Origin: Xanthobacteraceae bacterium
Lineage (GTDB): Bacteria > Pseudomonadota > Alphaproteobacteria > Rhizobiales > Xanthobacteraceae
DNA: 13,774 nt
Assembly (NCBI GenBank): GCA_030037185.1
Contig: JASHRR010000787.1
Span: forward strand, 1 to 13,774
Reading direction: 5' to 3'
This document shows positions 826 through 12,099 of the stretch, piece after piece (the stretch's first letter is position 1; the number at the start of each line of letters is the position of its first letter). The notes beneath the pieces are model-generated. The model made no database searches and was not told the DNA's origin. It was given only the letters and a program-made list of their open reading frames with translations. The position numbers and the translations under genes were made by a program.

Positions 826-1221
826 GCGGATAGCCCGGCACACCCGTGCAGACGTCGTCCGCTCAGATCTGCAGGCGCCATTGCGACCACAGGTTACGGG
901 TGGGGCGCCTCTTTCACTGCGGCTGCGCACAGCGCGATCGCTGGATTGGGGACGAATTGACGGGGGGCCGTTTTACTGTAACGATTATCCGGGGGCTTGT
1001 CGGGGAGCGGAAGCCGGTGTGGGCGTCACCAACTTGCGGTTGCGCAATTCAGGCGTTGCCGTCGATAGGGCTGCTCGCGAGGGGACGGCCGGTCTTTGAA
1101 TTGCTCCTGAGACAACATCGCTCGGAACGCGGCCGGCCTGGGCGCTGCGTGTTTGCGCGCGCGATTTCGGCGGTTGGCACTGCGTAACGGTGCAACAAAT
1201 CAAAACGTTAGAGGAAACCCC

Positions 1222-2142
1222 ATGGTGACCAGACCGACGGTCGAACAGGTGCGCGCGAAGACCTCGGAGGCCGCCAATGTGATCGAGGAGCTGCGCCGCC
1301 GCTACGATCTGCTCACCCATTCGCAGAAGCGCATTGCCGAGTATATCGTCGACCAGGCCCAGGCGGTGGCGTTTGCGACTGTCGACCAGATGGCCGCGCA
1401 GCTCGGCGTAAATCCTTCGACGATCGTTCGCTTCTGCTATCGCCTCGGCCTCAACGGATTTCCAGATTTGCAAGAGCGGATGCGCCAGGTCGTTCGCGGC
1501 CAATTGTCGCGCGCCGACGAACAGGTCGAGACAGGCGCCACCGGCGCCCACCTCCAAGGCACCACCTTCGGGGAGTCTCTCGCCCATGATCTGCGCAATC
1601 TGCAGCGCACGATCATGGGCCTCACCGCCGACGACCTCAACCGCGCGGTCGATCAGCTGGTCGCGGCGCGTCGTGTCTGTGTGGTTGCCGGGTTTTCGGC
1701 GTTTTCGCTGTCGCATTATTTCGGCATGGTGCTCAGCCGTCTTCGTCCCGATGTCCACATCCTGGCGGCCGACGAGGGCGTCTCCAAGGTCCGGCTTGCC
1801 GAAAACAATGCGCTGGACTGCCTCGTCGCGTTCACCTTTCCGCGCTATGCCCAGTTCACGCTCCGTTGTGCGGTTTGGGCACGCCAACAGAAGTCGACAA
1901 TCATCGCGGTTACCGATACCCCGATTTCGGCGGTCGGCCAGATCGCCGATACCGTATTGGTGGCGGCGCCGACCGGAACCGGGATGCAAAATTCCATGGT
2001 GGCCCCGATGGCTGTCGCTAATGCGCTCCTCAACGGGGTCATCGCTTCCAAAGGAACGGCAGCGCTCGAGCGCTACAACAGCAGCGACGCGTTGTTCGAA
2101 AGTTTGAACTCGTTCGTGCTCAAGCTCGACCAGGCTGATTGA
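1222..2142 (+). CDS. RpiR/MurR-type transcriptional regulator (HTH plus SIS domain)
   Basis: The 306-residue product has the two-domain plan of the RpiR family at its usual length. Residues about 28-95 form the N-terminal HTH_6 domain (SQKRIAEYI, then NPSTIVRFCYRLGLNGFPDL, the family signature of recognition helix and following turn). Residues about 138-275 form a SIS sugar-phosphate-isomerase fold, with the VCVVAGFSAFSLSHYF nucleotide-like loop and SAVGQIADTVLVAA. RpiR proteins usually repress or activate sugar-phosphate or amino-sugar genes, with a phosphosugar bound in the SIS domain; the effector here is unknown. The start is the ATG at 1222, with GAGGAA at 1211-1216. The open frame extends further upstream, but that part lacks family similarity. 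No sugar transporter or kinase is adjacent, so it acts on itself or at a distance. Confidence 0.92.
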   Translation: MVTRPTVEQVRAKTSEAANVIEELRRRYDLLTHSQKRIAEYIVDQAQAVAFATVDQMAAQLGVNPSTIVRFCYRLGLNGFPDLQERMRQVVRGQLSRADEQVETGATGAHLQGTTFGESLAHDLRNLQRTIMGLTADDLNRAVDQLVAARRVCVVAGFSAFSLSHYFGMVLSRLRPDVHILAADEGVSKVRLAENNALDCLVAFTFPRYAQFTLRCAVWARQQKSTIIAVTDTPISAVGQIADTVLVAAPTGTGMQNSMVAPMAVANALLNGVIASKGTAALERYNSSDALFESLNSFVLKLDQAD

Positions 2143-2658: not shown

Positions 2659-3954
2659 ATGCGTCATTTCTGCCGCCTTGGTGCCGTTCGCGTAAGCCTT
2701 GCCGCCGCGGCTAATTTTGCAACTGTAGTCGCTCTCCCACCGCCGGCGGCCCAGGCGCGCATTTTTGCCCAGTGGGTCGAGCTCGGGCCGGACGGCGCCT
2801 CGAGCGTTCGCGCCATCACCGACGAGCTCTGCCCGCAGGTGATCTTCGACGGGACCCCGGCTGCAATGACCGTTCGCGCCGAACCCGGACAGAAAATCCA
2901 GAACATCAAGCCGGCGGCATTTCCGGTGCGCAGCTGCGAGGTAACCGTGCCGCAAAGCGCGGTGGCAGCAACTCTCGACGGCCGCGTGCTGCCGCTCGCA
3001 CGGCCAAACCCCCAGCGCATTCTGGTGTTCGGCGATACCGGCTGCCGGCTTGACCGGAGTGCGCTGCAGGACTGCGACGATCCGGCGGCGTGGCCATTTC
3101 CAAGAATTGCTGCCGCAGCAGCGACGGCGAGGCCGGATCTCGTCATCCATGTGGGTGATTACCATTATCGCGAAGCACCGTGTCCGGCGGAGCGCAGTGG
3201 GTGCGCCCGCAGCCCCTGGGGATACGGCTTTGACGCCTGGTATGCCGACTTCTTTGAACCGGCAGCGCCGCTGCTTGCTGCAGCGCCATGGATCATGGTG
3301 CGCGGCAATCACGAGGACTGTTCACGGGCCGGCGAGGGCTGGATCCGATTCCTGGATCGGCTCCCGGTCCCTGCGGCGTGCCGGGACTTGACCGGCATCT
3401 TTGTGGCACGGCTTGGCGATTTGGGGTTCGTGGTTGCGGATGGCGCGCGCGCGGAAGACCCGAAGGGCGATCTCGGCGCGCTCGCCAGTCTGTTGCGCGG
3501 CCAACTCGCCGAGGTAGCAGCAAAGGTGCCGGCGGAGGCCTGGTTCGTAAGCCACCGGCCACTCAATTCCATGCGCGGGGCGCCGGGTGGGCTCGCCAAC
3601 GAAGTCGACAACACAGTGCAGGAATTAGCGTTCGCACCCGTCATGCCGCCCGGCGTGCGGATGACGGTCGCCGGCCACATTCATTTCTTTCAGGCCGTCG
3701 ATTTCGGCGGCAGCCGCCCGCCCCAGCTGGTGGTCGGTACTGGTGGCGACAATCTCGTCAAAGTGCCGCCGCTCAGTGTGATCGGGTCCGACATCAATGG
3801 CCGCAGGGTCACCAATTCAGTGACCTATTCGGGGTTCGCCTACATGGTGTGGGACCGCACCGGAAGTTCCTGGATCGGTACGCTATTCGACGTGGCTGGG
3901 AAAGCGCTCAGTCATTGTCGGCTGCTCGAGCGGTCTCTCAGCTGTGGACCGTGA
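2659..3954 (+). CDS. Exported metallophosphoesterase (calcineurin-like)
   Basis: This 431-residue protein has all five motifs of the binuclear-metal calcineurin-like fold in order: GDTG (D126), GDYHY (D167), GNHE (N217, H218), SHRP (H299) and GHIH (H340, H342). It should hydrolyse phosphomonoesters or diesters using two metal ions; the substrate is unknown. The N-terminus (an RVSLAAAANFATVVAL core ending near AQA, residues 30-33) looks like a Sec signal peptide, and many cysteines in the mature part (58, 93, 129, 139, 175, 182, 221, 241, 420, 429) suggest disulphides in the periplasm. Residues about 40-115 are a small beta-rich domain before the catalytic domain, as in purple-acid-phosphatase-like proteins. 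The start is the ATG at 2659 with GGAGG at 2642-2646. It appears to stand alone. Confidence 0.88.
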   Translation: MRHFCRLGAVRVSLAAAANFATVVALPPPAAQARIFAQWVELGPDGASSVRAITDELCPQVIFDGTPAAMTVRAEPGQKIQNIKPAAFPVRSCEVTVPQSAVAATLDGRVLPLARPNPQRILVFGDTGCRLDRSALQDCDDPAAWPFPRIAAAAATARPDLVIHVGDYHYREAPCPAERSGCARSPWGYGFDAWYADFFEPAAPLLAAAPWIMVRGNHEDCSRAGEGWIRFLDRLPVPAACRDLTGIFVARLGDLGFVVADGARAEDPKGDLGALASLLRGQLAEVAAKVPAEAWFVSHRPLNSMRGAPGGLANEVDNTVQELAFAPVMPPGVRMTVAGHIHFFQAVDFGGSRPPQLVVGTGGDNLVKVPPLSVIGSDINGRRVTNSVTYSGFAYMVWDRTGSSWIGTLFDVAGKALSHCRLLERSLSCGP

Positions 3955-4195: not shown

Positions 4196-4508
4196 AGGGG
4201 AGCAGCATCCGCCATCCCGGCTCGCGGGGGACGGCTGGGGCGAGGCTGGCGGCGAGGCCGCATAGGCGGGTCGCCATGTCAAAAATACCGCCGGGGGATG
4301 TGAGATGCCCACGGTTGCGGCCTCCGTGCCGTCCTCGTAGGCGCCGCCATCTGCTGGGCCGCTGCGCGACAGCGCCCAGCGGCTGCAAGGCCCGTTAGGG
4401 TTGCCGCGCCGGATTCTCGATCGGGCACTTGAACGCGCAAGCGGCTGCAAGCATAAGCACCGCGGGGGCGTTCAACCTGCAGTCTCGTTTACCCACGCGG
4501 CATCGGCC

Positions 4509-6245
4509 ATGTACCTCCTCGGAATTCACAACTCTGCCCACGACGCAGCAGCCTGCCTGTTTCACGATTATCAGCTGTTGGCCGCAGTTTCGCTGGAGAG
4601 GCTGACACGCAAGAAGGGTGCGGGCGTTTGCGCCGAACAGGAACTGCCGATACCCGCCCTGGACGAATGCCTGGATGTCGCGGGCATCAGGCGCGCTGAT
4701 GTCGACGTGATCTGCTCGACGCGCGATCACTGGGAATATCAGTCCTATGCCTTGCGAGGACGGCTCCGGCTGAAGCAGAAGGCCTTTCGTCTGCTGCGTC
4801 AGAAACGTCTGCCCCGGATGACTTATATGATGCAAAAATTGGGCGTGAGCGACGCGCGCGACATCTTCGATGCGGCCTCGTTTCGGGCTCGTTACGGCTT
4901 CGACAAAGCCGATATCTATTTCGCCAATCATCATTTCGCGCACGGCATCGCGGCCTACTTTTATTCGCCGTTTGACGATAGCCTGATCTATACGGCCGAC
5001 GCTTGCGGCGACAACGTCGCCTACAGCGCGCGGACCGCGAGGCAGAGCGCGTTCAGGGTGTTGTTTGGCGGCGATGCGAAGCTGCACGCCCCGTTTCCGG
5101 CCCACAGCTTGGGGAATCTCTACGGTTTTTTCACCCAGGCGCTGGGTTTCCTGATGGATCGCCACGAGGGCAAGCTGACCGGACTCTCAGCGCTCGGCGA
5201 GGCAAGAGCGGCCAAGGACATCAAACGGCACTTTCGGGTTGAAGAAAATGGCGAGATCAGCGCCGATTTTGCGAGCCACGACGCCATGCGGGATTTCGCG
5301 TTCGATGTGGCCAGCCGATTGTCACGCGAGGATGCTGCTGCTTCCGTTCAGTCGGTACTTGAAGAACTGATATGCGAGGCGGTCGAAAAGCTGCTGCGTC
5401 TGGCGGAAACACGCTCGCTCGCGGTAGCCGGAGGCGTATTTGCGAATGTGCGCCTCAATCGCGCTCTGATCGAGACGACCAGCGCCGAACGGATTTTTAT
5501 TTTTCCCGCGATGGGCGACGAAGGGCTGCCGGTGGGCGCCTGCCTCGCCTACCTGCACCAGCGTGACGGCGCTGCGGCCTGGCAGCGCCAGCGCCATCTG
5601 CTCGAGGATGTCTATCTCGGTCGAAGCTATCACGACAAGTTCGCGGGCTTTGCCGCCATTCACCCGAGCATCGTGTGCGATGGCAACGAGACCATCAGCA
5701 AGGCCGTGGAGGCACTGGTCGCCGGCCAGCTTGTCGCCCTCTACACCGGCCGCATGGAATACGGACCGCGGGCGCTCGGGAATCGATCGATTCTGGCGTC
5801 GCCGGTTGCACGCGAGATGAATGACAGGATCAACAAGCGCCTCGATCGCTCCGAATTCATGCCGTTCGCGCCTGCTGTCCTGGAGAAACATGCCGCGGAC
5901 GTGTTTGACCTTCACGAAGGAAATTCCTACGCGGCGCGGTTCATGACTATCACCTGCGCGGTCCAGCCCTCGTGGCGCGAACGCATCGCTGCCGTCGTGC
6001 ATGTCGACGGCTCGGCACGGCCGCAGATCGTCCGCGAGGGCGACAATCCGCTGTATTTTCGCGTACTGAGCCGGTTCCATGAACGAACCGGCCTGCCCGT
6101 CCTGGTGAACACCAGCTTCAATGTGCATGAAGAACCGATCATCGATGCGCCTGATCAGGCTCTTCGCGCTTTGGTGGACGGCAGGGTCGACTATGTCCTT
6201 ACCGACGACGGGCTGTACTCGAGGCGCCGCAGCGTGATGACCTAG
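4509..6245 (+). CDS. O-carbamoyltransferase of the NodU/CmcH/TobZ family
   Basis: The 578-residue product matches the family in length and motifs. The N-terminal half is a Kae1-like domain that makes carbamoyl-adenylate from carbamoyl phosphate and ATP: HNSAHDAA at residues 7-14, the metal-binding HHFAH at 141-145, DACGD at 164-168, AGGVFANVRLN at 307-317 and GDEG at 336-339. The C-terminal half is the Sua5/YrdC-like transferase domain: GRMEYGPRALGNRSILA (414-430), RSEFMPFAPAVLE (447-459) and NTSFN (534-538). Family members place a carbamoyl group on a hydroxyl of a sugar or antibiotic (Nod factor, cephem, tobramycin). No nod, antibiotic or glycosyltransferase genes are nearby, so the acceptor is unknown. 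The ATG at 4509 begins MYLLGIH, the family start, but has no clear Shine-Dalgarno. Confidence 0.92.
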   Translation: MYLLGIHNSAHDAAACLFHDYQLLAAVSLERLTRKKGAGVCAEQELPIPALDECLDVAGIRRADVDVICSTRDHWEYQSYALRGRLRLKQKAFRLLRQKRLPRMTYMMQKLGVSDARDIFDAASFRARYGFDKADIYFANHHFAHGIAAYFYSPFDDSLIYTADACGDNVAYSARTARQSAFRVLFGGDAKLHAPFPAHSLGNLYGFFTQALGFLMDRHEGKLTGLSALGEARAAKDIKRHFRVEENGEISADFASHDAMRDFAFDVASRLSREDAAASVQSVLEELICEAVEKLLRLAETRSLAVAGGVFANVRLNRALIETTSAERIFIFPAMGDEGLPVGACLAYLHQRDGAAAWQRQRHLLEDVYLGRSYHDKFAGFAAIHPSIVCDGNETISKAVEALVAGQLVALYTGRMEYGPRALGNRSILASPVAREMNDRINKRLDRSEFMPFAPAVLEKHAADVFDLHEGNSYAARFMTITCAVQPSWRERIAAVVHVDGSARPQIVREGDNPLYFRVLSRFHERTGLPVLVNTSFNVHEEPIIDAPDQALRALVDGRVDYVLTDDGLYSRRRSVMT

Positions 6246-7571: not shown

Positions 7572-7616
7572 CCACCCTGGTATGCATCCACCTTAAGGAC
7601 TGATGCACGAGGGTGG
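7572..7616 (+). promoter_or_regulatory. Inverted repeat that buries the ribosome binding site of the TcuA-like gene
   Basis: CCACCCT (7572-7578) pairs with AGGGTGG (7610-7616), and TGCATC (7583-7588) pairs with GATGCA (7602-7607). A 4+2-nt internal loop lies between them, giving 13 pairs. The terminal loop contains the 8-bp palindrome CCTTAAGG (7591-7598). The right arm is the Shine-Dalgarno region (GAGGG, 7609-7613) for the ATG at 7619. In RNA this would hide the ribosome binding site; in DNA it could be an operator for a dimer. Confidence 0.55.
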
Positions 7617-7618
7617 AA

Positions 7619-9100
7619 ATGACAAGCGAAGTGGCTGACGTGATCGTGGTGGGCGCCGGCAACGCGGCTTTCTGCGCCGCCTTGGCGGCGCGCGAGCAGG
7701 GCGCGTCCGTGCTGATGCTGGAGGCGGCACCAGAGGAGGAGTCCGGCGGCAATAGCCGGTTCACGGCAGGCTCGATCCGCGTCGTCTACAACGGCATCGA
7801 CGACATCAAGGCGCTCGTGCCCGATCTCACCGATCAGGAAAGCGCCACTACCGATTTCGGTACCTACACGCAGGACCAGTTCTTCGACGACATGGCGCGG
7901 GTCACCCAGGATCGCGCCGATCCCGACCTTGTCGAGGTTCTGGTGACGCGCTCGTTCGATACGCTGAAATGGATGACCGCGAAGGGCATCCGCCTGATCC
8001 CGATCTACGGGCGGCAGGCGTTCAAGATCGACGGCAGGTTCAAGTTCTGGGGCGGCCTGACGGTGGAGGCGGTCGGCGGCGGCCCGGGCCTCGTCAAGAT
8101 GCTGACCGACGCCGCGCTCAGGAACGGCATCAGGATTCGCTACGATTCCCGTGCGGTCGAACTCATCTATGAGCACGGCCGCGTCAACGGCGTGCGCATC
8201 CGAAAGGATGATGGCCTGCACGAGCTGCGCGCAAGGTCCGTGATCCTCGCCTGCGGTGGCTTCGAGGCGAACGCGGAAATGCGCACGCGCTATCTCGGCA
8301 GCGGCTGGGACCTCGCGAAGGTGCGCGGCAGCCGCTGGAACGCCGGCGACGGCATCCGCATGGCGCTTGAGATCGGCGCCAGCCCCGCCGGCAACTGGTC
8401 GGGCTGCCATGCCGTACAGTGGGAACGCAATGCCCCGGAGTTCGGCGACCTTGCGGTCGGTGACCAGTTCCAGAAGCATTCCTATCCGTTCTCCATCATG
8501 GTCAACGCCGACGGCAGGCGCTTCATCGACGAAGGTGCTGACTTTCGCAACTACACTTACGCCAAATATGGCCGCGTCGTGCTGGAGCAGCCCGGCCAGT
8601 TCGCCTGGCAGATTTTCGATCAAAAGGTGAAACACCTGCAGCGCGACGAATACCGCATCAAGCAGATCACCAAGGCGGTCGGCAACACCATCGAGGAGCT
8701 GGCCGGCAAGCTCGATGGCGTCAACGCCGCCGAGTTCATCAAGACCGCGGCGCAGTGGAACCAGGCGGTACGCACCGACATACCGTTCAATCCCAATATC
8801 AAGGACGGGCGATGCACCGAGCGCCTCGCCATCAACAAGAGCAATTGGGCAAACACGCTCGACGCGCCGCCCTACGAGGCCTACGCGGTAACCTGCGGCG
8901 TCACCTTCACGTTCGGGGGCCTGCGCATTACCACCGACGGTGAAGTCGTCAACACCGACTATCGGCCGATCCGTGGGCTTTATGCGGCGGGCGAACTGGT
9001 CGGCGGGCTGTTCTATTTCAACTATCCGGGCGGAACGGGCCTGATGGCCGGCTCGGTGTTCGGCCGTATCGCCGGCAATAGGGCGGGCAAGTCTGCGTGA
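7619..9100 (+). CDS. tcuA: FAD-dependent tricarballylate dehydrogenase TcuA-like flavoprotein
   Basis: The 493-residue protein belongs to the fumarate-reductase/succinate-dehydrogenase flavoprotein superfamily. It has the N-terminal dinucleotide fold (VIVVGAGNAAFCAALAA, residues 9-25, with a Glu at 35), GGNSRFT (43-49), the second FAD strand ILACGGFEAN (209-218), RRFIDEG (300-306) and the C-terminal FAD clamp GLYAAGELVGG (453-463) with NYPGGTGLMAGSVFGR (468-483). Length and the last block fit TcuA, which oxidises tricarballylate to cis-aconitate and passes electrons to TcuB. No TcuB, TcuC transporter or LysR-type TcuR is in the window, so another dicarboxylate or cyclic substrate is possible. 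I chose the ATG at 7619; the GTG at 7613 would add two residues. Confidence 0.82.
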   Translation: MTSEVADVIVVGAGNAAFCAALAAREQGASVLMLEAAPEEESGGNSRFTAGSIRVVYNGIDDIKALVPDLTDQESATTDFGTYTQDQFFDDMARVTQDRADPDLVEVLVTRSFDTLKWMTAKGIRLIPIYGRQAFKIDGRFKFWGGLTVEAVGGGPGLVKMLTDAALRNGIRIRYDSRAVELIYEHGRVNGVRIRKDDGLHELRARSVILACGGFEANAEMRTRYLGSGWDLAKVRGSRWNAGDGIRMALEIGASPAGNWSGCHAVQWERNAPEFGDLAVGDQFQKHSYPFSIMVNADGRRFIDEGADFRNYTYAKYGRVVLEQPGQFAWQIFDQKVKHLQRDEYRIKQITKAVGNTIEELAGKLDGVNAAEFIKTAAQWNQAVRTDIPFNPNIKDGRCTERLAINKSNWANTLDAPPYEAYAVTCGVTFTFGGLRITTDGEVVNTDYRPIRGLYAAGELVGGLFYFNYPGGTGLMAGSVFGRIAGNRAGKSA

Positions 9101-9504: not shown

Positions 9505-12099
9505 TTATGAAAGCAGGTCGCTTGCGGCTAGCGAGGGCGTAACACGCTCGCCAAAGAGGGCGTACGCGCTGCTGCCATCCGGCAGGTCGACGTCTGCGCG
9601 ATAGAGCATGGCTATCACGGATGGGCCATCAAGCCGAGGAGGCCGAGAGCAAGGTTCGTCGGCATCGCCGCGGACGAGCCGGGAGTAAAAGGCTTCGACG
9701 GTCTCGTCCGGCCGGCGCACGAACCGGGAAAAGGTTTGCCCACGAATGAATACGCGCTGGCATCGAGCCGCCGCGTGCAGGAGCGCGAGGTGGAACATCG
9801 AGGTGCGCACGCCACTCGCGAAGTACATCATCAGCTCCGGGCAGATCTTGGTGATCGCCGCGTTTGAGTTCTCCACGTTGTTAAATTGGAACTGGCCCTT
9901 CGCATGCACGTCGAGCCAGTGGACGACATTCTCACGCAGGTCGAACACAAGAGGGAGAAAGACACCATTCTCGCCGTGCAGCGCAAACTTCAACTCGACG
10001 GTGCGCGGGTCGAAATGCTTCCCGGTCAGGTCATCGCGCAGCATCAGCCCTGCAAAGCCTCGCTCGAGAAGGCTGAATGGCATGCCGGCATAGTTGTTCA
10101 CGACCATAACGGCGTAGCGGACACCGGCAGCGAGCGCTTGATCACGATCGAGGTCGACGAACTCGCTCGCACCATCCGGCCAGGGCCCGGCGCGCAGATC
10201 TCCCGCACTCTGAGCGATTAATGCGCCATTCGAGCCCCTTGCCTGCAGCTGGTAGTACGAGCACACCCCAACATACCGCCACGATTCATCATAGAGCCCG
10301 ATCGATAAGTCGAGATCTGTCGTGGATCCATTTTCGGGCTGGCACCAGTGGAGGAACAGGCGAACCAGTTTCCCCGCCGGAACCTGTAGGCGAGAGCCAC
10401 GCGGCAACGAAACCGCCGACCGGCTCGCCGTTCTCTCGTTGAACGGCACAATAATCGTCCGAAGCCCTTCGTCGATCAGGCAATCAACAAATGCAGGCTT
10501 GGCCGAGAAGCGACGCAGAAGCTCCGCCTCGATTGCCTGAACGACCGCCTCTATCGTTTGGCGGGGAAGGGCGGGACGTTGATCGTAGCTCGACACCCCC
10601 TTCGCGACACGACCCTTCGGCCAGTAGACGCGCAGGCGCGCCTTCTCGGCACGCGCGCGAAGATGGCTGGTCAACGTGACAAGCACTGGCGTCGGCATAA
10701 GAGGCATCTTGCTCGTGAAGGTGGCAATCACCCGCCCCCGGGCCGTCGTGGTGCCCGACACGCGGAGCGCGTAATCGAGGCGGCGTGCCAACTCGCCGGG
10801 CCGCTCCGCGAGAACCGAAAGCATTGTGTCGGTGTCCTTTTGCCGGATCGCCTGTTCGAACCTCGCGGACCAACTCTGAAAAGGGGGGGCCGGCGTTCCG
10901 TCCGGAGCCTTCTTGCGCACGATTTGTAACGCGCGCGCCACGTTCGGAAACCTTGCTGCGTACTCGTGAGGATGGAGGAATTCGCCGACCCAAACCCAAT
11001 AGGACCGGTGGCGCAGCATGTCCTCAACGAGGCGATCGGGATCCAGTCCTTCCAGCACACCGAGCAATGCACGGCGAAGGGGGCGCGACAGTTTGGCGGT
11101 TTTGAAGCGCGAAACGCGTAAGGGAATCGTGGTCGTCTTGCGACGGGGCTGCGGCGGGGCTGCGTCAAATAGCTCGGCGATGCGTCCCCAGAATCCGCTC
11201 CGAGCCTCAAGCTGCCCGACGGTCTTAAACACCGTTTCGCGAAGAAGGGAGCCGTCGGTTCCAGAAAGGACCGCGATGAACCGGAGCACATCAGTGGCGG
11301 TCGTCATGAAGCGCCTTGCGTGGGGAAGAACGTCGGAGGGGTCGCAGGCCTTGAAGAGCGTGCCAAAGACGATCGCTACGTTTTGGCGTACCGGGATCGT
11401 CTGCGGCAACCAAGAGAGAACCTGTACTTTGTATTCCTCGAGGATGCTTACGAGCCCATCCCGATCAGCGGGCGACAGCGCCTGCTTGCGCTCGCCCAGG
11501 CTCACGAAGAAGGCCCTGGCTTCGTCGAGCTCATTCTCGCCGAGATCGATAAGCCTGAAAACGACGTTCTCCGACGGGACGCCTGCTGCCGGGTCCGGGC
11601 GAAAAAATGGGGAGGCGTAATCGACACGGTGCTCGCATACGGGACATGCGCTGTAGTTCGAGCCATCGAAACACTGATCGCAGACCACGTGACGGCAAGG
11701 GTCCAGCACGTGGGTCGTACTCTTCCTCCTGCAAAAGAGGCATGGCTGCCCTTCTGCTTGCAGGAAGTGAACAAGAACCTTCTTCCACCACAGTTCGAGG
11801 GTGTCGCTCGGAACTCCGTCTGGAAAACGGCGGAACAGAGGCTTGTGCTTGCGGTCACCGCCGACCTGCGCCAGCAGAGTGGAGAGTGCCCATGCTCGAA
11901 AGGCCACGAGTTCGTCGAGCGATGACACTGCGAGGCGTGCGCGGAGTCGGGACGACAAGACATACCCGACGCCGGCAAGCTCGAGCTCGACAGCCCGCAC
12001 ATGCTCCTCCGACAACGGTTTGCCCTTCGACGAGACGAAGGCAACGCCTCGCCGCGTGAGGAGCAGATCGCGGACGGTGGGGCCCTTCTCGCTACTCAT
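9505..12099 (-). CDS. RING-finger protein with TerD-like C-terminal domain (MXAN_6230/SCO0854-like)
   Basis: From the ATG at 12099 the product has 864 residues. A complete C3HC4 RING lies at 120-155: C120, C123, C135, H137, C140, C143, C152, C155, with the classic CRHVVCDQC centre. Residues about 190-540 are mainly helical (FMTTATDVLRFIAVLSG, LSRPLRRALLGVLEGLDPDR). Residues about 560-735 look like a TerD domain: SLPRGSRLQV, the Asp pair TDLDLSIGLYD (D595, D597) that binds calcium in TerD, SAGDLRAG, GASEFVDLD and VRYAVMVVNNYAG. RING folds act as ubiquitin ligases in eukaryotes; activity in bacteria is unproven. I recall an NCBI family name MXAN_6230/SCO0854 RING-domain protein fitting this plan. 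No E1, E2 or ubiquitin-like gene is visible. A start at 12204 would add 35 residues but would run through the leader hairpin. Confidence 0.85.
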   Translation of the reverse strand: MSSEKGPTVRDLLLTRRGVAFVSSKGKPLSEEHVRAVELELAGVGYVLSSRLRARLAVSSLDELVAFRAWALSTLLAQVGGDRKHKPLFRRFPDGVPSDTLELWWKKVLVHFLQAEGQPCLFCRRKSTTHVLDPCRHVVCDQCFDGSNYSACPVCEHRVDYASPFFRPDPAAGVPSENVVFRLIDLGENELDEARAFFVSLGERKQALSPADRDGLVSILEEYKVQVLSWLPQTIPVRQNVAIVFGTLFKACDPSDVLPHARRFMTTATDVLRFIAVLSGTDGSLLRETVFKTVGQLEARSGFWGRIAELFDAAPPQPRRKTTTIPLRVSRFKTAKLSRPLRRALLGVLEGLDPDRLVEDMLRHRSYWVWVGEFLHPHEYAARFPNVARALQIVRKKAPDGTPAPPFQSWSARFEQAIRQKDTDTMLSVLAERPGELARRLDYALRVSGTTTARGRVIATFTSKMPLMPTPVLVTLTSHLRARAEKARLRVYWPKGRVAKGVSSYDQRPALPRQTIEAVVQAIEAELLRRFSAKPAFVDCLIDEGLRTIIVPFNERTASRSAVSLPRGSRLQVPAGKLVRLFLHWCQPENGSTTDLDLSIGLYDESWRYVGVCSYYQLQARGSNGALIAQSAGDLRAGPWPDGASEFVDLDRDQALAAGVRYAVMVVNNYAGMPFSLLERGFAGLMLRDDLTGKHFDPRTVELKFALHGENGVFLPLVFDLRENVVHWLDVHAKGQFQFNNVENSNAAITKICPELMMYFASGVRTSMFHLALLHAAARCQRVFIRGQTFSRFVRRPDETVEAFYSRLVRGDADEPCSRPPRLDGPSVIAMLYRADVDLPDGSSAYALFGERVTPSLAASDLLS

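Follow-up and report, generated by a model that had tools for sequence, protein, structure and literature searches.

What might a bacterial protein do that joins a complete RING finger to a TerD domain? The question is raised by a 13,774-nucleotide stretch of Xanthobacteraceae DNA (contig JASHRR010000787.1 of assembly GCA_030037185.1; hereafter the window, meaning the whole stretch analysed), which encodes such a protein of 864 residues. The protein matches the NCBIfam profile NF041916 over its full length (913.7 bits against a cut-off of 600, residues 11-863), and this family is named without a function, as 'MXAN_6230/SCO0854 family RING domain-containing protein'. An earlier, sequence-only reading had described the family as known only by name, which agrees with what we found: NF041916 carries no function, and in the literature covered no mention of SCO0854 or MXAN_6230 was found. 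What that reading missed is a Ro60-like body, and this body moves the likely job of the protein from protein tagging to RNA handling.

In the predicted structure a Ro60-like fold runs across both domains, a TROVE-type ring and a vWA domain, and five of ten Ro60 alignments start already within the N-terminal helices, at model residues 41-46; judged from this model, a Ro60-type fold is very probable. Residue conservation was counted over an alignment of 100 rows. The ring has a mean charge of +12.7, nine of its residues are invariant (R339, R342, R363, W368, H376, R433, R439, R490 and R530), and its 14 best-kept arginines are present in 93-100 of the rows, at identities down to about 34%. In the vWA-like domain D543 is kept in 100/100 rows, residue 545 is mostly A (41) or G (29), with E in 10 and S in 5, and residue 547 is A in 29 and R in 28. 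DxSxS, the motif of the metal ion-dependent adhesion site (MIDAS) according to the accessible part of PMC11277228, from which the description of the Ro60 domains is also taken, is absent.

Sequence comparison with TROVE proteins gave a fainter picture. Pfam TROVE (PF05731) had no match at E ≤ 1 in the window protein and was absent from the 16 Pfam families matched by 17 rows of A1. When residues 180-560 were compared by hhalign with 22 aligned TROVE proteins, four of which served in turn as the lead, the scores were 27.5, 32.0, 32.1 and 27.1; with the L085 and L110 leads this corresponds to P 0.004 at a probability of only 8-9%, and the L085 score, to which that of L110 is similar, lay above all 40 nulls, which were block-shuffled L085 profiles with a maximum of 28.5. 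An earlier, less diverse TROVE set gave P 0.17 by hhalign, the HMMER route from ring to TROVE was not significant (hmmsearch, 1.8 bits), and the ring profile retrieved no PDB sequence at E ≤ 10. Since the TROVE evidence at this level is weak, we use the term Ro60-like and stop short of assigning the protein to the TROVE family. Neither a Y RNA nor any other known RNA gave an Rfam match at gathering in seven sources, the one sub-threshold match being to a CRISPR repeat (22.5 versus 45 bits).

Two modules are grafted onto this body. The eight ligands that the sequence-only reading had assigned to a C3HC4 RING (C120, C123, C135, H137, C140, C143, C152 and C155) are all in place, the finger matches Pfam Prok-RING_4 (8.6e-19), and the ligands are kept in 99-100 of 100 rows. 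In a Planctomycetota member (locus L019), D replaces the RING histidine. The TerD domain claimed for the C-terminal part was likewise recovered, as a TerD fold in the predicted structure together with acidic motifs; Pfam TerD (PF02342) had no match at E ≤ 1 in the window protein, and the sequence link to TerD is indirect. Residues D595, D597, G633, D634, P641, G643, E646 and D649 are invariant over the 100 rows, and of these D595, D597, D634, E646 and D649 are putative calcium-binding acidic residues; calcium sensing by this domain is possible. The layout is given in the table.

Table. Features of the window; positions refer to its forward strand, residues to the window protein
Feature	Positions	Strand	Remarks
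Whole gene	9505..12099	minus	864 aa + stop; NF041916 member
N-terminal helices	11770..12075	minus	residues 9-110 (predicted structure)
C3HC4 RING finger	11602..11751	minus	residues 117-166; between N-terminal helices and ring
Ro60/TROVE-like helical-repeat ring	10495..11544	minus	residues 186-535 (predicted fold; weak profile match)
vWA-like domain, first strand	10456..10491	minus	residues 537-548; D543 invariant, MIDAS DxSxS absent
TerD domain	9877..10386	minus	residues 572-741; inserted within vWA-like domain
vWA-like domain, remainder	9508..9876	minus	residues 742-864, C-terminus; Ro60 alignments extend to residue 864
NodU-like carbamoyltransferase	4401-6245		ordinary neighbour, by profile
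TcuA-type FAD dehydrogenase	7613-9100		ordinary neighbour, by profile
RpiR-type regulator	1153-2142		ordinary neighbour, by profile

Homologues numbered at least 478 among 7989 scored candidates, and the best 80 of 126 qualifying places gave a set of 76 distinct loci, from named genomes of Myxococcota, Oxalobacteraceae, Planctomycetota, Streptomyces, Kitasatospora and others. Occurrence of the full form is patchy: it passed the cut-off in 23 of 121 Streptomyces sample genomes (two in fragments), in 5/140 of the phylum sample of G002 and in 1/148 of that of G003, where each sample contains its carrier centre genome and the single G003 hit is the centre alone. At loci L029 and L030 the matched part of the family gene is interrupted by 6 and 9 in-frame stops, respectively, which makes both copies look broken or misassembled.

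Shorter proteins match NF041916 at about 5-117, 174-357 and 385-733 and not at the RING. This RING-less form was found in Streptosporangium, in at least 3 genomes of the phylum sample of G002, in at least 4 of that of G003 and, among the rows listed, in about 27 of the 121 Streptomyces genomes. With at most 7 candidates scored per genome, no Streptomyces genome had both forms (hypergeometric 0.0015, kinship not controlled); Streptosporangium G009 has both. A third form, the half-RING, occurs in plasmid proteins of Variovorax, Vibrio, Deinococcus and Segatella and in phage SCTP-2, and retains no more than four of the eight ligands, the third, fourth, seventh and eighth (C135, H137 or C, C152 and C155), presumably RING site 2, the second zinc site; the spacing equals that of the window protein in four of the five and is two residues shorter in Deinococcus. 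Relatives with half a RING or none share the chassis, and the RING module looks optional on it. A tree of 71 rows, computed by a quick method with the RING columns excluded and containing several long branches, placed all 25 full-RING rows on one side of a branch with a support of 98 in the Shimodaira-Hasegawa-like approximate likelihood ratio test; on these sequences the full RINGs form one clade. The Deinococcus half-RING stands next to them (91), the RING-less set of Streptomyces, Streptosporangium and one phage lies beyond it (99), and the other half-RINGs fall outside. As the root is a midpoint only, the tree does not establish a direction from half-RING to RING.

Many of the phage relatives lie at arrays of transfer RNA (tRNA) genes. 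Relatives found by tblastn lie on 11 phage and 31 plasmid records, and a viral scan yielded 68 loci with 34-51% identity to the query, and no RING or half-RING pattern occurs in the 66 frames of these that could be classified; further viral scans returned either a single locus, which was the Weasels2 record itself, or nothing. A tRNA gene occurs in the fetched flanks (up to 10 kb) of 52 of the 68 viral loci and within 5 kb of 45; there is some redundancy among the loci, 66 of which fall into 52 groups at 80% identity. Upstream of the family gene there are 210 tRNAs in 306 kb at 0-5 kb and 156 in 277 kb at 5-10 kb, downstream 84 in 322 kb and 15 in 290 kb, so the phage gene tends towards the downstream end of a tRNA array. 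In the whole-record control (ARAGORN near the gene, Infernal over whole records), 179 tRNAs lie within 5 kb in 44 records against 62.0 expected (Wilcoxon p 0.004), and 141 against 35.1 expected in the 30 records longer than 100 kb (p 0.001). ARAGORN found tRNAs in six of the nine phage records examined (of 11) and none within 6 kb in XacN1, SCTP-2 and WXIN.

Some of the phage neighbours are themselves tRNA enzymes. In RpAliso the adjoining gene is annotated as a tRNA nucleotidyltransferase, in RcXuper one small opposite open reading frame (ORF) stands between the family gene and the nucleotidyl transferase gene that follows it, both inside a tRNA array, and in Weasels2 RtcB is encoded 3 kb from the family gene. 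Over the 68 viral loci, relatives of a Pfam-confirmed Thg1 were found in 10 and those of a PolyA_pol-type enzyme in 6; the RcXuper and RpAliso nucleotidyltransferases have relatives in 3 loci and RtcB in 2. Pfam matches of 102 phage neighbours were mostly DNA methylases and HNH genes, with PolyA_pol 3 and Thg1 2. NAMPT genes lie within 8 kb in 11/68 phage loci (L152, L161, L165, L166, L176, L179-L183 and L191), and Nudix and CTP-transferase-type genes were seen in 10/68. Genes for transfer-messenger RNA were called by ARAGORN upstream of the family gene in L128 (3230-3652) and L134 (2864-3207), both starred, and in L132 (808-1105). In L172 the phage family gene is preceded, at a distance of about 4 kb, by an ORF (4639-6048) for a reverse transcriptase with a C-terminal SLOG-type domain; the BLAST cluster of this ORF was seen in 7 groups.

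A plasmid relative offers a possible further link to RNA repair. On a Variovorax plasmid (L204, 2822-8028) a half-RING member of 742 aa is divergent from a four-gene row ending in rtcR, a neighbourhood taken from one of four Variovorax plasmids with the family gene. The intergenic stretch between the two contains TGGCACGGGCATTGCA, a sigma-54-type site that lies 72 bp before the start, points to the family gene and is the sole site of its pattern in the 13,956-base locus. In Salmonella, RtcR is a sigma-54 activator that binds cleaved tRNA, and its gene is adjacent and opposite to rsr-yrlBA-rtcBA (PMC7790460, accessible part). Across a Burkholderiales sample the Variovorax-type protein was matched in 4 of 300 genomes, in two over the TerD part only. 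A RING-less member from this sample (L213, 4971-8020), in what is perhaps an integrated element, lies right downstream of tRNA-Pro, tRNA-Arg and tRNA-His and has no sigma-54-type site.

For the full-RING genes we clustered the ORFs of the 76 loci and the window by BLAST, using our own gene calls and leaving the clusters without profile annotation. Besides the family itself, every cluster was confined to at most 5 of 12 taxon groups, and the most widespread one was present in 7/77 loci. A conserved operon was rejected for want of any widely recurring neighbour cluster, and a known defence system was rejected as PADLOC returned no match.

We consider it probable that the protein is a Ro60-like RNA-handling scaffold with a ligand-sensing TerD and a docking RING as add-ons, and an RNA role as such appears about equally probable. 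Under stress or when phages attack, small RNAs that are structured or damaged, foremost tRNA or tRNA-like molecules, would be held in and around a positively charged ring of helices, which a degenerate vWA-like domain closes. TerD, grafted into the vWA part at the region that bears the MIDAS in Ro60, would act as a sensor of Ca2+ or a small ligand. The RING, which lies after the N-terminal helices and before the ring, may be built around zinc to dock or oligomerise and so recruit a partner, for which ubiquitin-like transfer would not be necessary. Several observations weigh against this. Only 14 of the 76 full-RING loci have any tRNA within 10 kb, tblastn found no RtcR, RtcB or Vibrio RNA ligase near any of the 76, and a sigma-54 motif near the start occurs in 0/73 full-RING loci (background 0.003). 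Among the phages, 17 of 44 records, and 11 of the 30 above 100 kb, have no tRNA within 5 kb, and as NAMPT and Nudix genes are as common as tRNA enzymes, the link to the latter is a minority pattern. The hhalign scores with the P0121 and L117 leads fall inside the null range; with two of four TROVE profiles there and tRNA-enzyme neighbours few, our overall confidence is slightly lowered. The solitary full-RING gene, without RNA-repair neighbours, would also suit a TerD-type stress or phage-defence scaffold, in which TerD would be the ligand sensor, the remainder would do no more than assemble a protein complex, and the likeness to Ro60 would be generic HEAT resemblance with no RNA binding. The TerD fold with its invariant acidic residues speaks for such a scaffold, as do Ter-like genes near family loci (L068 has a TerD and L019 a TerB-like stretch at 3421-3741; 2/77 loci by tblastn, TerC, TerZ and others not searched) and a TerB gene near the Deinococcus plasmid relative; we regard it as rather doubtful.

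The sequence-only reading had proposed a stress- or conflict-linked machine, a scaffold or something ligase-like. Its scaffold half is plausible, with relatives on phages and plasmids; its ligase half found little support. An E3-like ligase of a bacterial ubiquitin-like pathway, whose RING recruits an E2 while ring and TerD pick the substrate, would account for the near-invariant zinc ligands and for the solved structures retrieved by the family profile, among them the E3 RINGs of BIRC7 (7.1e-06) and CBL-B (1.4e-05). Many E3 RINGs, however, have an Arg 'linchpin' right after the last RING Cys, where the family has E (53), H (21), G (15), N (4) or D (3) in 96 of 100 rows; residue 122 is F in 39, H in 29 and L in 14, and we presume that both places matter for E2 binding. 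Prok-E2_B, the sole E2 family tested (E1, other E2 and ubiquitin-like families were not searched), was present in 2 of 12 genomes carrying the family, the neighbourhoods hold no widespread cluster, a result in which single ubiquitin-type genes could be missed since clusters were not profile-annotated, and half-RING and RING-less relatives share the chassis. A ligase is thus improbable, and an RNA-care protein is more likely than a classical ubiquitin-type ligase. The patchy occurrence might suggest a decayed or neutral fusion gene without present function; with the RING ligands, the TerD acids and the ring arginines conserved as described, and the family over the cut-off without stops in 12/12 carrier genomes, this is very improbable indeed. 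A bolder form of the RNA-handling scaffold, which we offer tentatively and think rather unlikely as a whole, is a bacterial Ro60-class RNA-surveillance machine that acquired a RING finger. Capture of an RNA in the ring, with an ion or metabolite on TerD as the gate, would expose the RING, which could then recruit a partner protein or modify it. This machine would have arisen once, on the bacterial branch of a TROVE-TerD family, half-RINGs would be steps towards the RING or relics of it, and large phages would use the family beside tRNA arrays, possibly against host tRNA-cutting defences.

If the RNA-handling scaffold is correct, a named family without function gains a testable biochemistry, RNA binding, and Ro60 RNA quality control, the Ter stress system and RING fingers, usually studied apart, are joined. 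Full, half and no RING on one chassis would then be natural variants by which bacterial RING roles outside ubiquitin pathways can be addressed directly, and attention would be drawn to a little-known gene that accompanies the tRNA arrays of large phages.

No description of a RING, TerD and Ro60-like architecture was found in the literature covered, including the accessible parts of PMC7159879 and PMC3710099; most subscription papers lie outside that coverage, hence this is no proof of unpublished status. The window protein is a full-length member of NF041916, whose name does not include the TROVE-like body, the split vWA domain or the RING-less relatives. Some jumbo phages have a TROVE protein and TerD occurs in phages (PMC7824862, accessible part). 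Another phage protein with a structure like that of human RO60 is MPC00265 of cluster C and AF mycobacteriophages, for which the accessible part of PMC12363180 does not mention TerD. The WXIN relative matches 5 phage records, and since WXIN is the only mycobacteriophage among them, MPC00265 is probably a different protein. With TerD proteins the window protein shares the fold, the acidic motifs and a sequence link; unlike them, it has the domain inserted in a large protein, and by tblastn only 2/77 loci have a gene for TerD or TerB nearby. Ro52 and Ro60 apparently do not interact directly (PMC11277228, accessible part). From Ro60 and Rsr the window protein differs in having neither a Pfam TROVE match nor a MIDAS, in its inserted TerD and added RING, and in that no Y RNA was found; like them, it has the predicted fold over both domains and a positive ring, and some of its relatives lie near tRNA and RNA-repair genes.
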